Assembly (NCBI GenBank): GCA_000333815.1
Contig: CAPI01000046.1
Coordinates: forward strand, 1 to 64,000
Direction: 5' to 3'
Length of the DNA: 64,000 bases
Source: [Collinsella] massiliensis
Lineage (GTDB): Bacteria; Actinomycetota; Coriobacteriia; Coriobacteriales; Coriobacteriaceae
A program made the position numbers and the translations under genes. The notes below the pieces were generated by a model, which was not told the origin of the DNA, ran no database searches, and saw only the letters and a list, made by a program, of their open reading frames with translations. Below, one piece after another: positions 2,808-43,587 of the stretch; positions within the stretch are counted from its first letter, which is position 1; every line of letters starts with the position of its first letter.

Positions 2808-2870
2808 TGAGTCATTGGGGACGGGTTCAAATGACTCAGTGAGTCAAACGAACCCGTCCCCAATGGCTCA
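2808..2870. repeat. Palindromic repeat, GGGGACGGGTTC family
   Basis: Inverted arms TGAGTCATTGGGGACGGGTT and AACCCGTCCCCAATGGCTCA flank a short GACTCA-rich centre. It lies between the radical-domain gene and pflA. The same core recurs at 10033, 16561, 26435 and 36031. It can form a long hairpin, so it could also attenuate pflA transcription. Confidence 0.85.
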
Positions 2871-4715: not shown

Positions 4716-4952
4716 ATTCGCTGGACTCCTTTCCTGCGGAATGTCCCCTTCGCTTACTATAGAGGGGAAGTTTTGCAACTCATATGCACAGATGCGCGCT
4801 TTGATTTGCCTGGTGATGCGCCGAAACCGTCCCAAATGCGTCTTCCGGTGCAACCGGGGCGGATGCGAAGCATCGCGTCCGATTCGCCTCGGGCCATCGG
4901 CTTCGGCTTGAAGCGCGCCGGCGGAAACGCGCAGCGACAGGAAGGGGCAGCA

Positions 4953-5717
4953 ATGGCAGCGACCATCGCCATCATCGGGGCGCTCGAGCAGGAGGTGCGC
5001 CACATCTACGACGCGCTCGGGGATCCCGCGTGGGAGGAGCGCGGCGGCCTGCGCATCGCGCGCGGCACGCTGGGCGGACGCGAGGTCGTGGCGACGGTGG
5101 CCGGCATGGGCACGGTGAACGTGGCCGCCGCGACGCAGCTGCTGCTGAGCGTGTACGACGCCGGCACCGTGATCTTCTCGGGTATCGCCGGCGGGCTCAA
5201 CCCGGCGCTCCACATCGACGACATCGTGATCGGCGAGCGGCTGCGCTACACAGACACCGATACTGCGCTCATCGCGGAGTCCGCGCCCGGGCTCGAGGAG
5301 TTCGCCTCCACGCCCGAGCTCGTCGACCTCGCCGAGCAGGTGCTCCGCGCCCGCGGCTACGCAGCCATCGAGGATGGCGGCCGGCGCCCGGTCGGCACGG
5401 GCAACGCAGCCGCTGAAGCCACCGCAGACACCCCTGCCTACCTGCGCGGAACCATCGCCACGGGCAATCGCTTCGTGACGGGCGATGCCCTTCGCGCTGC
5501 CGTGGTCGCGGAGACGGCGGCGGACTGCGCGGAGATGGAGGGCGCGGCCGTCGCGCACATCGCCGCGAAGAACGGCGCCGCCTGCCTCGTGCTGCGCGCC
5601 ATCTCGGACAACTGCGACGAGGCGTACGACGCGTTCTGCGAGCGCAGCTTCGACGTGGACGGCTACGCGCGCCGCGCGAGCGAGATCGTGCTCGACATCG
5701 CCGCGCAGCTCGACTGA
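4953..5717 (+). CDS. mtnN: 5'-methylthioadenosine/S-adenosylhomocysteine nucleosidase
   Basis: This 254-aa enzyme hydrolyses MTA and SAH to adenine plus the thioribose sugar, recycling SAM by-products. Family motifs are IIGALEQEV at the N-terminus, VIFSGIAGGL, ATGNRFVTGD, the purine/ribose-binding CAEMEGAAVAHIA, and the catalytic-aspartate region LRAISDNCDEA. A loop around residues 140-165 (GTGNAAAEATAD) is longer than in E. coli Pfs. GAAGGGG lies 5 bases before ATG 4953. A very long upstream extension exists in this frame but is antisense to the kinase gene. Confidence 0.92.
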   Translation: MAATIAIIGALEQEVRHIYDALGDPAWEERGGLRIARGTLGGREVVATVAGMGTVNVAAATQLLLSVYDAGTVIFSGIAGGLNPALHIDDIVIGERLRYTDTDTALIAESAPGLEEFASTPELVDLAEQVLRARGYAAIEDGGRRPVGTGNAAAEATADTPAYLRGTIATGNRFVTGDALRAAVVAETAADCAEMEGAAVAHIAAKNGAACLVLRAISDNCDEAYDAFCERSFDVDGYARRASEIVLDIAAQLD

Positions 5718-25237: not shown

Positions 25238-26746
25238 CTACAGGTCGAGTGCTGCCCGCTCCACGAACGCGCCCATGTCGTCGACATCGACCACGTCGCC
25301 GTGCAGGATCGGTGCGCTCTGCAGGCTGGCGAGCTGCGCGGGCGGCATGGTGCCGGTCGCCTGGGCGAGCGTCTCCATGCAGGCGAAATCGTCTTCGGGA
25401 ACCGCGAGGTCGAGCGCCTCGGCCACGGCGCGCGGGAACTTGTACGGGCTCGCCGTGGAGAGCAGCACGCGGGCGCGGGCGCCGGGCGCGGCGGGCGTGC
25501 GCTCGAGCACGTGGTAGCCGCAGGCGGTGTGCGGGTCGATGAGGTAGCCATGGCCCTCCCAGCAGGAGCGGATGGCGTCGCTCACCTCGGCCTCGCTCGC
25601 CCAGCCGCAGCCGAACACCTCCTGGATGCGCGCGAGCAGGTCTGCCGGCACCTCGTAGCGGCCGGTCTCGGCGAGCTCTGCCATGAGCGCGGCCACGAGC
25701 TCGCAGTCGCCGTCACTCAGGTAGTAGAGCATGCGCTCGAGGTTCGACGAGATGAGGATGTCCATGCTGGGCGAGGTCGTGGTGAAGAACGGGCGGTTGC
25801 GGTCATAGACGCCCGTGGTGAGGAAGTCGTAGAGCACGTTGTTCGCGTCGCTCGCCACGATGAGCTTCGCCACGGGCAGCCCCAGGAGCTTGGCGTAGTA
25901 CCCGGCGAGCACGTCGCCGAAGTTGCCGGTGGGCACGCAGAACTCGACCTCGTCGCCCACCTCGATCGTGCCCGCGCGCAGCAGTTGCGCGTAGGCGGCG
26001 AAGTAGTAGACCACCTGCGGCACGAGGCGCCCCACGTTGATGGAGTTCGCGCTCGAAAGCGTCCAGCCCGCCGCGCCGAGGCGCTCCGCGAGCGCGCTAT
26101 CGGCGAAGATGCGCTTCACGGCGCTCTGCGTGTCGTCGAAGTTTCCGCGCACGGCGCAGACGGCCACGTTGCCGCCCGCCTGCGTGGTCATCTGCAGCTC
26201 CTGCACGTGGCTCACCTTGCCGGCGGGGTAGAAGACGGTGATGCCGCAGCCGGGAGCGTCGGCGAAGCCGGCGAGCGCCGCCTTGCCCGTGTCGCCCGAG
26301 GTCGCGGTGACGATCATCACGCGCCCGTCGCCGTCCGCGTCGCCCGCGCGCGCCATGAGCCGCGGCAGCATCTGCAGGGCGACGTCCTTGAAGGCGCTCG
26401 TGGGGCCATGGAAGAGCTCGAGTACGGAGACGGGTGAGTCAATTGAACCCGTCCCCAATGACTCAAGCGGGACGAGGGGCGTGACCTCGGGGCTCGCGAA
26501 GGTGCCCTCGTAGGCCTCGCGTACGCACGCGGCGATCTCGTCCGATGTGTAATCAGGTAGTAACAATTGCAGCACAGCCTGGGCGATCTCGCTGTACGAC
26601 ATCTCGGCAAGGCGGCTGACCTCGAATTTCTCCGCTCCCAGGGCGTCGCAGACGAAGAGCCCGCCATCCGGTGCGAGGCCTTCGCGAATCGCCTCCTTCG
26701 AGGTGCGGGAAATGGCTCGCGAACGTGTACTATGATACAAACTCAT
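25238..26746 (-). CDS. thrC: Threonine synthase, with an in-frame palindrome insertion
   Basis: This 502-aa PLP enzyme converts O-phosphohomoserine to threonine. The Schiff-base lysine is Lys120 in HGPTSAFKD, with TATSGDTGKAAL, SSANSINVGRLVPQ and VPTGNFGDVLAGYYAK downstream, as in the long (ThrC1/fungal-type) class. GAGGAGC lies 8 bases before ATG 26746; upstream in-frame ATGs are rejected. Residues about 95-105 (ESLGTGSIDSP) are encoded by a copy of the intergenic GGGGACGGGTTC palindrome and interrupt the usual PLV..(V)LELFHGPT connection without breaking the frame. Catalytic motifs are intact, so activity is expected to survive. Confidence 0.93.
   Translation of the reverse strand: MSLYHSTRSRAISRTSKEAIREGLAPDGGLFVCDALGAEKFEVSRLAEMSYSEIAQAVLQLLLPDYTSDEIAACVREAYEGTFASPEVTPLVPLESLGTGSIDSPVSVLELFHGPTSAFKDVALQMLPRLMARAGDADGDGRVMIVTATSGDTGKAALAGFADAPGCGITVFYPAGKVSHVQELQMTTQAGGNVAVCAVRGNFDDTQSAVKRIFADSALAERLGAAGWTLSSANSINVGRLVPQVVYYFAAYAQLLRAGTIEVGDEVEFCVPTGNFGDVLAGYYAKLLGLPVAKLIVASDANNVLYDFLTTGVYDRNRPFFTTTSPSMDILISSNLERMLYYLSDGDCELVAALMAELAETGRYEVPADLLARIQEVFGCGWASEAEVSDAIRSCWEGHGYLIDPHTACGYHVLERTPAAPGARARVLLSTASPYKFPRAVAEALDLAVPEDDFACMETLAQATGTMPPAQLASLQSAPILHGDVVDVDDMGAFVERAALDL
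26435..26465. repeat. GGGGACGGGTTC palindrome inside thrC
   Basis: On the coding strand, TGAGTCATTGGGGACGGGTT continues into CAATTGACTCA. It matches the left arm and centre of the intergenic copy at 2808-2838 almost base for base. The reading frame avoids the TGA contained in the repeat. Confidence 0.85.
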
Positions 26747-28259: not shown

Positions 28260-28286
28260 TTGGGGACGTGTTCGTTTCAACCCATT
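28260..28286 (+). repeat. Half-palindrome upstream of asd
   Basis: TTGGGGACGTGTTCGTTTCA continues into ACCCATT and matches one arm of the 38-bp inverted repeat at 43479-43587. Only one arm is present here. It ends directly before the asd RBS GAGGAGG, so it contributes to the asd leader. Confidence 0.7.
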
Positions 28287-28297
28287 GAGGAGGAGCC

Positions 28298-29323
28298 ATG
28301 AAGCAGTACACCATCGCCATCCTGGGCGCGACGGGGGCCGTGGGCACGCAGATGCTCCAGTGCCTGGAGGAGCAGGACGTTCCCGTGGGCGAGCTGCGCC
28401 TGCTCGCGAGTGCGCGCAGCGCCGGCAAGCTCATGACGTTCAAGGGCGAGGAGATCGCCATCCAGGAGGCGCGACCCGAGGCGTTCCAGGGCTGCGACTT
28501 CGTGCTCGGGGCGGCGGACGACGCCATCGCGCGCGAGCTTCTGCCGAAGGCCGTGGAAGCGGGCGCTGTCGTGATCGACAACAGCCATGCGTTCCGCCTC
28601 GATCCCGATGTGCCGCTCGTGGTGCCCGAGGTCAACGGTGCGGACGCCCTCGCGCACCACGGCATCATCGCCAACCCCAACTGCGCCACGATCATCGGCC
28701 TCGTGCCCACGTGGCCGCTGCACCTGGCGGCGGGCGTGACGCGCATGATCGTGTCGACGTACCAGGCCGCGAGCGGCACGGGCGCGCCGGGCATGGCGGA
28801 GCTCGAGGCGCAGATCCAAGCGATGGGGCGCGGCGAGGACATCCCTGAGCCGCACGCGTTTGCCGCGCAGCTCGTGAGCAACCTCATCCCGCAGATCGGC
28901 GGCTTCGACGGCGAGGGCTACACCTCGGAGGAGATGAAGCTGCAGAACGAGGGGCGCAAGATCATGCACCTGCCCGAGCTGCGCGTGAACTGCACCTGCG
29001 TGCGCGTGCCGGTGATGCGCTCGCATTCCGAGAGCATCACGCTCGAGTTCGAGCGCGACATCACGGTGGAGGAGGCGCGCGAGATCCTCGCTGTCGCGCC
29101 CGGCGTGAAGCTCGTGGACGATCGCGACGCCGTGAGCGCGCACGATCGCTTCCCCATGCCGCTCGACACGAGCGACCAGGACCTCATCTGGGTTGGTCGC
29201 CTGCGCCGCGACATCTCGAACCCCGAGCCCGCGCGCGGCATCACGTTCTGGTGCTGCGGCGACCAGATTCGCAAGGGCGCTGCGACGAACGCCGTGCAGA
29301 TCCTGAAGCTGCTGCTCGCGTAA
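28298..29323 (+). CDS. asd: Aspartate-semialdehyde dehydrogenase
   Basis: This 341-aa enzyme reduces aspartyl-phosphate to aspartate semialdehyde. It shows the NADP-binding ILGATGAVGTQML, the catalytic cysteine in NPNCATIIG, the substrate region YQAASGTGAPGM and the active-site histidine segment VPVMRSHSESI. Length and motifs are standard. GAGGAGGAG lies 3-5 bases before the ATG. Co-transcription with lysC is likely. Confidence 0.96.
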   Translation: MKQYTIAILGATGAVGTQMLQCLEEQDVPVGELRLLASARSAGKLMTFKGEEIAIQEARPEAFQGCDFVLGAADDAIARELLPKAVEAGAVVIDNSHAFRLDPDVPLVVPEVNGADALAHHGIIANPNCATIIGLVPTWPLHLAAGVTRMIVSTYQAASGTGAPGMAELEAQIQAMGRGEDIPEPHAFAAQLVSNLIPQIGGFDGEGYTSEEMKLQNEGRKIMHLPELRVNCTCVRVPVMRSHSESITLEFERDITVEEAREILAVAPGVKLVDDRDAVSAHDRFPMPLDTSDQDLIWVGRLRRDISNPEPARGITFWCCGDQIRKGAATNAVQILKLLLA

Positions 29324-35980: not shown

Positions 35981-36030
35981 GAATAGCGCGAAAATGCAGG
36001 TGAGGCTTCGGGGCACGGGCGCGGGATCGC

Positions 36031-36061
36031 TGAGACAAATGAACCCGACCCCAATGACTCA
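36031..36061. repeat. GGGGACGGGTTC-family repeat carrying the pfkA stop
   Basis: On the coding strand TGAGTCATTGGGGTCGGGTT continues into CATTTGTCTCA. The first three bases are the pfkA stop codon. One base of the core differs from the 2808 copy (GGGGTCGGG). Confidence 0.85.
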
Positions 36062-37138
36062 CTCGTCGCCGAAGCTGATGCCGAGCGCCTTTGCCTCGCG
36101 CACGAGGTCGCTCTTGGGGTCGACGTACTTGAGCTTGCCGGCGACGTCGGCGAGCGGCACGCGCGTCATCTTGCGGTCCACCTGGGCGATCATGTAGCCG
36201 AACTTGCCCTCAAGGCAGCCGAGCGCCGCCTCGACGCCGCACTGCGTGGCGAAGATGCGGTCCTGGGCGTCGGGGATGCCGCCGCGCTGCGTGTGCCCGG
36301 GGATGGCCACGCGCGTCTCGCGCCCGGTGCGCGCCTCGATCTCCTTGGCGATGTCGTACACGATGGACGGGCTCGTGCGCGCGGCGACCTTCTTCTTGTA
36401 CTCCTTCTTGGAGAGGGCGGCGTCCTCCTTCGAGATGGCGCCCTCCGCGACGGCGAGGATGGTGAAGCGGCTGCCGGTCTGCATGCGCTTGTCGATCGTC
36501 GCGATGACGTTGTCCATGCTGTACGGGATCTCGGGGATGAGGATGACGTCCGCACCGCCCGCGACGCCCGCGTACAGGGGGATCCAGCCCACCTTGTGGC
36601 CCATGATCTCGATGACGAATACGCGGCCGTGGCTCGAGGCGGTGGTGTGGATGTCATCGATGCACTTCGTGGCGATCTCGACGGCGCTCGTGAAGCCGAA
36701 CGTCATCTCGGTGCCCCAGGTATCGTTGTCGATGGTCTTGGGCAGGGCGATGACGTTCAGGCCCTCCTGCGAAAGGCGGTTGGCGGTCTTGGTGGAGCCG
36801 TTTCCGCCCAGCATGAAGAGGCAGTCCAGATGCAGCTGCTTATAGGTCTTGATCATGGCAGGGACCTTCTCCACGCCGTCGGCCTCGGGCGTGTCGAGCA
36901 GCTTGAACGGGGTGCGGCTCGTGCCCAGGATGGTGCCGCCGCGCGTGAGGATGCCGCTGAAGTCGCGCGGGGTCATCTTGCGGTAGCGCCCGTAGATGAG
37001 GCCCTGGTAGCCGTCCTCGAACCCGTAGATCTCCAGTGATTCCTTGCTCTTGTTGAAGAGCGTCTTCACGATGCCGCGCATGGTCGCGTTGAGCGCCTGG
37101 CAGTCGCCGCCGCTCGTGAGCAATCCGATTCGAAGCAT
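36059..37138 (-). CDS. pfkA: 6-phosphofructokinase
   Basis: This 359-aa enzyme phosphorylates fructose-6-P in glycolysis. It shows SGGDCQALNATMRG, the substrate loop PKTIDNDTWGTEMTFGF and GHTQRGGIPDAQDR. The phosphate-donor motif is GGNGS with lysine in PKTIDND. Glycine at the E. coli position 104 fits ATP use, while the lysine is common in PPi-type and long ATP-type enzymes, so the donor cannot be fixed from sequence. AAGGGGG precedes ATG 37138 by 6 bases. The stop codon lies in a palindromic repeat. Confidence 0.92.
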   Translation of the reverse strand: MLRIGLLTSGGDCQALNATMRGIVKTLFNKSKESLEIYGFEDGYQGLIYGRYRKMTPRDFSGILTRGGTILGTSRTPFKLLDTPEADGVEKVPAMIKTYKQLHLDCLFMLGGNGSTKTANRLSQEGLNVIALPKTIDNDTWGTEMTFGFTSAVEIATKCIDDIHTTASSHGRVFVIEIMGHKVGWIPLYAGVAGGADVILIPEIPYSMDNVIATIDKRMQTGSRFTILAVAEGAISKEDAALSKKEYKKKVAARTSPSIVYDIAKEIEARTGRETRVAIPGHTQRGGIPDAQDRIFATQCGVEAALGCLEGKFGYMIAQVDRKMTRVPLADVAGKLKYVDPKSDLVREAKALGISFGDE

Positions 37139-43478: not shown

Positions 43479-43587
43479 GGGTTGGTTGGGGACGTGTTCC
43501 TTTCAACCCATTTTCAACCCATCGGGGAGGACGCGGCGGTTAAGCTGTCTGAAAATGGGTTGAAAGGAACACGTCCCCAACCAACCC
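43479..43587. repeat. 38-bp perfect inverted repeat, GGGGACGTGTTC family
   Basis: Arm GGGTTGGTTGGGGACGTGTT... (43479-43516) is exactly complementary over 38 bases to 43550-43587, around a 33-nt centre. It sits between the convergent ends/starts of the histidine kinase and DXS-like genes, 9 bases from the kinase stop codon. One arm recurs upstream of asd. Confidence 0.92.

Follow-up and report, generated by a model that had tools for sequence, protein, structure and literature searches.

The canonical REP is a palindrome of 20-50 nt that is present in high copy, mostly between genes, and associated with a RAYT transposase gene in the same genome; a GTAG foot belongs to the definition (PMC8266576, PMC6006769). 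REPs with a GTAG/CGTC foot have also been described inside genes in several species of proteobacteria and other bacteria, many of them in repair genes, including the UvrD/Rep helicase gene, and the recB genes of two Xanthomonas species differ in the REP that they carry at roughly the same site; the authors proposed that such copies are tolerated in flexible linkers or loops (PMC3733652; BMC Genomics 2013 14:522). In-frame palindromes in genes are likewise known as the Rickettsia palindromic elements (RPEs; Ogata 2000/2002, as outlined in the review PMC10969869). How REPs disseminate is an unsettled question in the field. Our literature search returned no paper on REPs in Collinsella or Enorma, within a limited coverage that does not make this absence proof.

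The elements described here share with the in-gene REPs of PMC3733652 their occurrence in conserved genes as short in-frame palindromes, either alone or in inverted pairs and with a UvrD/Rep helicase among the hosts, and the supply of stop codons by REP ends. They differ from them in their host (Coriobacteriaceae), in the lack of a GTAG/CGTC foot, in a loop core that is common to families with different arms, and in that the ThrC, Mfd and PcrA loops of sister species are filled by different families. Like the RPEs outlined in PMC10969869, they are selfish palindromes of several families translated in frame in unrelated metabolic genes, but RPEs measure ~150 bp, whereas the units here are 31 and 48 bp long and the 31-bp family is linked to a RAYT. 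As in REPtrons (RAYT-REP) and REPINs, a Y1 HUH transposase gene lies between REPs, inverted doublets are common and families are species-specific (PMC2817692, PMC3116915, PMC8266576); those systems are described as mainly extragenic, and their guide tetranucleotide GTAG was not found here. In-frame intragenic palindromes are already known; new are the taxon, a non-GTAG family, RAYT-specific arms on a common core, and the repeated occupancy of the same loops by different families with near-exact junctions.

We analysed a 64-kb stretch (the window) of a genome of the genus Enorma (G000; 2.33 Mb, a draft assembly of 135 contigs), in which a 31-bp palindrome lies inside thrC (Table 1). The identity of the gene was established by profile searches (TIGR00260 over its cut-off, Pfam PALP and Thr_synth_N), and its product matches the PDB homologue 8g1y (E 1e-129). 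A first-pass annotation had placed a copy of an intergenic palindrome here, in frame within an intact thrC, and its coordinates proved exact: the reading frame is open and conserved on either side, and the copy is single, sense-oriented, identical to the family consensus (from the alignment of cores described below) and free of stops in a reading that starts GAG TCA. The third base of the Leu94 codon is the first base of the copy, and positions 26435-26464 form ten in-frame codons, ESLGTGSIDS, which are ThrC residues 95-104; the peptide originally given, ESLGTGSIDSP, has as its eleventh residue a proline that lies outside the repeat. The segment does precede the PLP-lysine motif, as annotated, K120 lying 16 residues downstream as counted along the sequence.

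Table 1. Positions in the window of thrC, its repeat copy and loop, and other copies of the same family.
Feature	Position	Strand	Basis
Inverted pair of the thrC-type REP family; cores 2817-2828 (+) and 2850-2861 (-)	2808..2870		core matches
thrC, threonine synthase, 502 aa (MSLYHSTRS...)	25238..26746, stop included	-	ORF
Codon of PLP-binding lysine K120, in GPTSAFKD	26387..26389	-	sequence; invariant alignment column
Hypervariable ThrC hairpin loop, residues 91-107 (LVPLESLGTGSIDSPVS), between TP and VLELFHG	26426..26476	-	family alignment; AlphaFold
31-bp REP-like palindrome TGAGTCATTGGGGACGGGTTCAATTGACTCA in thrC	26435..26465	-	exact repeat copy
Diverged single copy of the thrC-type REP family, core GGGGTCGGGTTC at 36041-36052	36030..36062	-	core matches

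The 12-mer core of the repeat, GGGGACGGGTTC, occurs 100 times in the source genome (reversed control, 0) and, at ≤1 mismatch, 9 times in the window against 0.49 expected. The 29-mer GAGTCATTGGGGACGGGTTCAATTGACTC has 90 matches in the source genome at ≤3 mismatches, 22 of them identical, and full-length copies number 0-2 in each of six related genomes (other Enorma species); judged by these matches, the family appears almost confined to the source species. Aligning 101 cores with their flanks yielded a 31-bp unit with TGAGTCA/TGACTCA arms, which as single-stranded DNA is predicted to form a hairpin (z -4.0 vs shuffles), an inverted pair folding at z -9.7. With 31 bp and ~90 copies, the family has the length, copy number and mostly intergenic location of canonical REPs; of 95 cores, six were classed as in-gene, but the one in L255 we rejected as a chance match: GKGTGSSKKEAE is native to a double-stranded-RNA-binding domain of the RNase III type and shares the 12-mer only, with no REP arms. 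No conserved GT[AG]G (GTAG/GTGG foot) precedes the unit on its 5' side across the 101 aligned copies, and for want of this canonical foot we refer to the family as REP-like. The thrC-type repeat being absent from relatives, these repeats have evidently spread; this much holds of the earlier claim of direct evidence that they move, the movement itself being deduced from comparison between species.

Copies of the repeat lie on both sides of an IS200-like (RAYT) transposase gene of contig C43 (L252; G000:C43:4111-4869), one of six Y1_Tnp genes in the source genome, with tandem REPs upstream and an inverted REP pair at the stop codon and downstream, and this association marks the family as REP-like. 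The C43 RAYT carries the Y1 HUH domain (PF01797 Y1_Tnp, 45 bits against a cut-off of 23) and an NHAHLL motif; its match to NCBIfam NF047646 REP_Tyr_transpos (E 3e-16, 59.8 bits) falls below the 80-bit equivalog cut-off. Its best match among seven relatives has 55% identity, which agrees with the near-confinement of the REP family to the source species. Around other RAYT genes of these genomes lie arm-variants of a common GGGGAC[AG]GG core, each gene having its own, such as GACTCATTTGGGGACGGGGTCGTTTTGAGTCA in G004 and GGATGGATGGGGACGGGTTCATTTCATCC in G010. The stop codon of the C43 RAYT gene (near 4869) is the TGA of the downstream REP.

The claim that the repeat adds about 11 residues to ThrC did not survive the comparison with relatives. 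From TP to V[LM]EL, the loop spans 15-30 residues (mode 16) in the examined Coriobacteriaceae orthologues, with the exception of one divergent genus (8 residues), and 8-10 residues in the outgroups Bifidobacterium, Slackia and Atopobiaceae relatives; with 17 residues, the window ThrC is within one residue of the family mode, which rules out a net gain of 11. Alignment of relatives' ThrC, the check that the first-pass annotation had proposed, largely returned what it had named as refuting, namely equivalent residues from unrelated DNA: the loop sequences vary widely in Coriobacteriaceae, and the underlying DNA is unrelated in all examined orthologues but that of G004, which has a palindrome of another family. 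Both the expansion and the variability of the loop thus preceded the REP that now fills it. Because a bare insertion of 31 bp breaks the frame, a replacement or at least one further indel would have had to accompany it, and since the loop is, to within a residue, no longer than the family mode, it is unlikely that the element went in cleanly with nothing lost. An AlphaFold model of ThrC (33 sequences; mean pLDDT 89.6) places strands at 91-93 and 106-109 and has its sole stretch with pLDDT<50 at 97-101, within the REP-encoded segment, which the model thus puts at the tip of a beta-hairpin, in a disordered state; solved ThrC homologues have a short turn at this position.

G004 is the closest relative, with a ThrC 85% identical to that of the window. 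Its thrC loop contains CTGACATTGGGGACAGTCCCCAATGTCATGACAAAAGGGACAGGCGTT, a perfect 48-bp copy of another repeat, whose 16 codons are read in frame as LTLGTVPNVMTKGTGV. The 17-bp heart of this 48-bp family occurs 37 times in G004, once in G000 and 0 times in G001-G003, and the aligned G004 copies have a common unit around it; no RAYT flanked by the 48-bp family was found in the G004 genome, which is 86% complete. In the two sister species the same ThrC loop is therefore filled by different REPs, each from the species' own family, and such loops appear to serve as landing sites for small repeats.

An in-gene census was taken by a codon-usage heuristic that scans REP contexts for exact cores only and so misses degenerate copies, with genes named by recognisable sequence, not by family search. 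Palindromes were found in frame in several intact, conserved genes, as for RPEs: three in G000 (thrC and the genes for an Mfd-like protein and a PcrA/UvrD-like helicase) and seven in G004 (thrC, Mfd and PcrA, in the same loops as in G000, and genes for RsmA/KsgA-, GatB-, Elp3/GNAT- and MtnN-like proteins). In both the Mfd and the PcrA loop, G000 has an inverted pair of its own type and G004 has units of the G004 type. A further inverted pair lies in the PcrA loop of G005 (..PLGTGSFDR..SNEPVPNGS), and REP-like palindromes lie in the Mfd and GatB loops of G008, a genome that contains 70 copies of a core variant of its own, TTGGGGACG[T/C]GTTC. In the window, the hypervariable loop of the MtnN-like nucleosidase (~5361-5440) is REP-free; the G004 orthologue has an in-frame REP in that loop at nearly the same length, which argues for replacement, not addition. 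G004 GatB shows a clear net gain in length over G000 and G001. The RsmA and GatB loops of G001 (Enorma burkinafasonensis), in which we found neither a C43 RAYT match nor a REP core, are among the shortest, making this species a natural REP-free comparator.

Together, we consider it highly probable that the thrC segment is a lineage-specific REP-like copy, spread by or linked to the C43 RAYT, in a tolerant hypervariable loop, and the wider pattern is most likely explained by a handful of tolerant loops in which REPs linked to RAYTs either land time and again or undergo turnover. The C43 RAYT, to which the family is at least linked, would spread it through the genome, and RAYT activity may have placed the REP in thrC; the beta-hairpin loop would tolerate the in-frame, stop-free reading of the palindrome, ThrC presumably staying active with ESLGTGSIDS, and the few tolerant loops would be targeted repeatedly or have their resident REP replaced in place. 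All three in-gene sites of G000 are among the seven of G004, and the simulated probability of even one shared in-gene site under uniform independent placement is 0.0017, which rules out such insertion and means either that tolerant sites are few or that sites are inherited and refilled. Our data suggest that both operate, without separating them.

How far inheritance goes bears on a reading in which an ancestral REP sat at these loops and was overwritten by the active family of each lineage, by RAYT-primed replacement or by gene conversion between elements with the common core, with no fresh insertions into the same loops; we regard this as a real possibility, if somewhat against the odds. It accounts for the five orthologous positions that carry different families in G000 and G004 (ThrC, Mfd, PcrA and two sites just after genes), always in the same orientation (5/5), and for left (5') junctions that are equal within ~1 base at both intergenic sites and PcrA (GGCGTC^TGA; CGCTAGC^; GCCGA^). 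It also fits the FAD-linked oxidase, whose C-terminal tail is encoded by the same G004-type REP in both species (L049, G000:C75:19644; L289, G004:C29:7836) with arms that have changed in step, from TGACA/TGTCA to CGCCA/TGGCG, and so stay complementary; this sequence comparison suggests that the copy was retained since the common ancestor. Against it, the thrC and Mfd 5' junctions of the two species lie ~8 bp apart, and the RsmA, GatB, MtnN and Elp3-like genes have a G004 REP with none recognisable in G000. An extension, which we put forward tentatively and think rather unlikely, is that a few loops of housekeeping proteins are standing docking sites in which a palindrome outlives speciation and is overwritten by the active RAYT/REP family, the frame and often the left junction being kept; if so, REP turnover would be an ongoing source of loop diversity in essential Coriobacteriaceae proteins.

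On our preferred reading of repeated landing or turnover, the in-gene copies would be tolerated. That they are retained for a benefit to protein or mRNA (a peptide tag, a co-translational hairpin or regulation) is improbable: the ES...DS frame is used by 5/5 in-gene G000 copies, though four frames are open, and several in-gene REPs are in genes for repair or translation, as was also noted in PMC3733652, but the same loops hold unrelated peptides, or none, in other species, and the ThrC segment is predicted to be disordered, with unlike peptides in G000 and G004. A chance match or an assembly chimaera of 31 bp at a repeat, for which the draft state of the assembly might speak, is already refuted in practice and has a negligible probability, given the exact match to the consensus, the intact frame conserved on both flanks and the analogous case, with another family, in the independent genome G004.

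Sister species whose genes hold different families at matching positions, in some cases with left junctions that are almost identical, offer a direct comparison of insertion with replacement in place. Selfish DNA can diversify the loops of essential enzymes, threonine synthase among them, and such loops should not be taken for adaptive insertions.

The window also contains a second REP family. Its inverted pair at 43488-43578 has arms ATGGGTTGGT/CAACCCAT and the core TTGGGGACGTGTTC, which also flanks a second RAYT gene of the source genome (G000:C35:17895-18629), and in the ask-asd intergenic stretch, at 28262-28273, a single REP of this family closely precedes the ribosome-binding site of asd, whose start lies at 28298.
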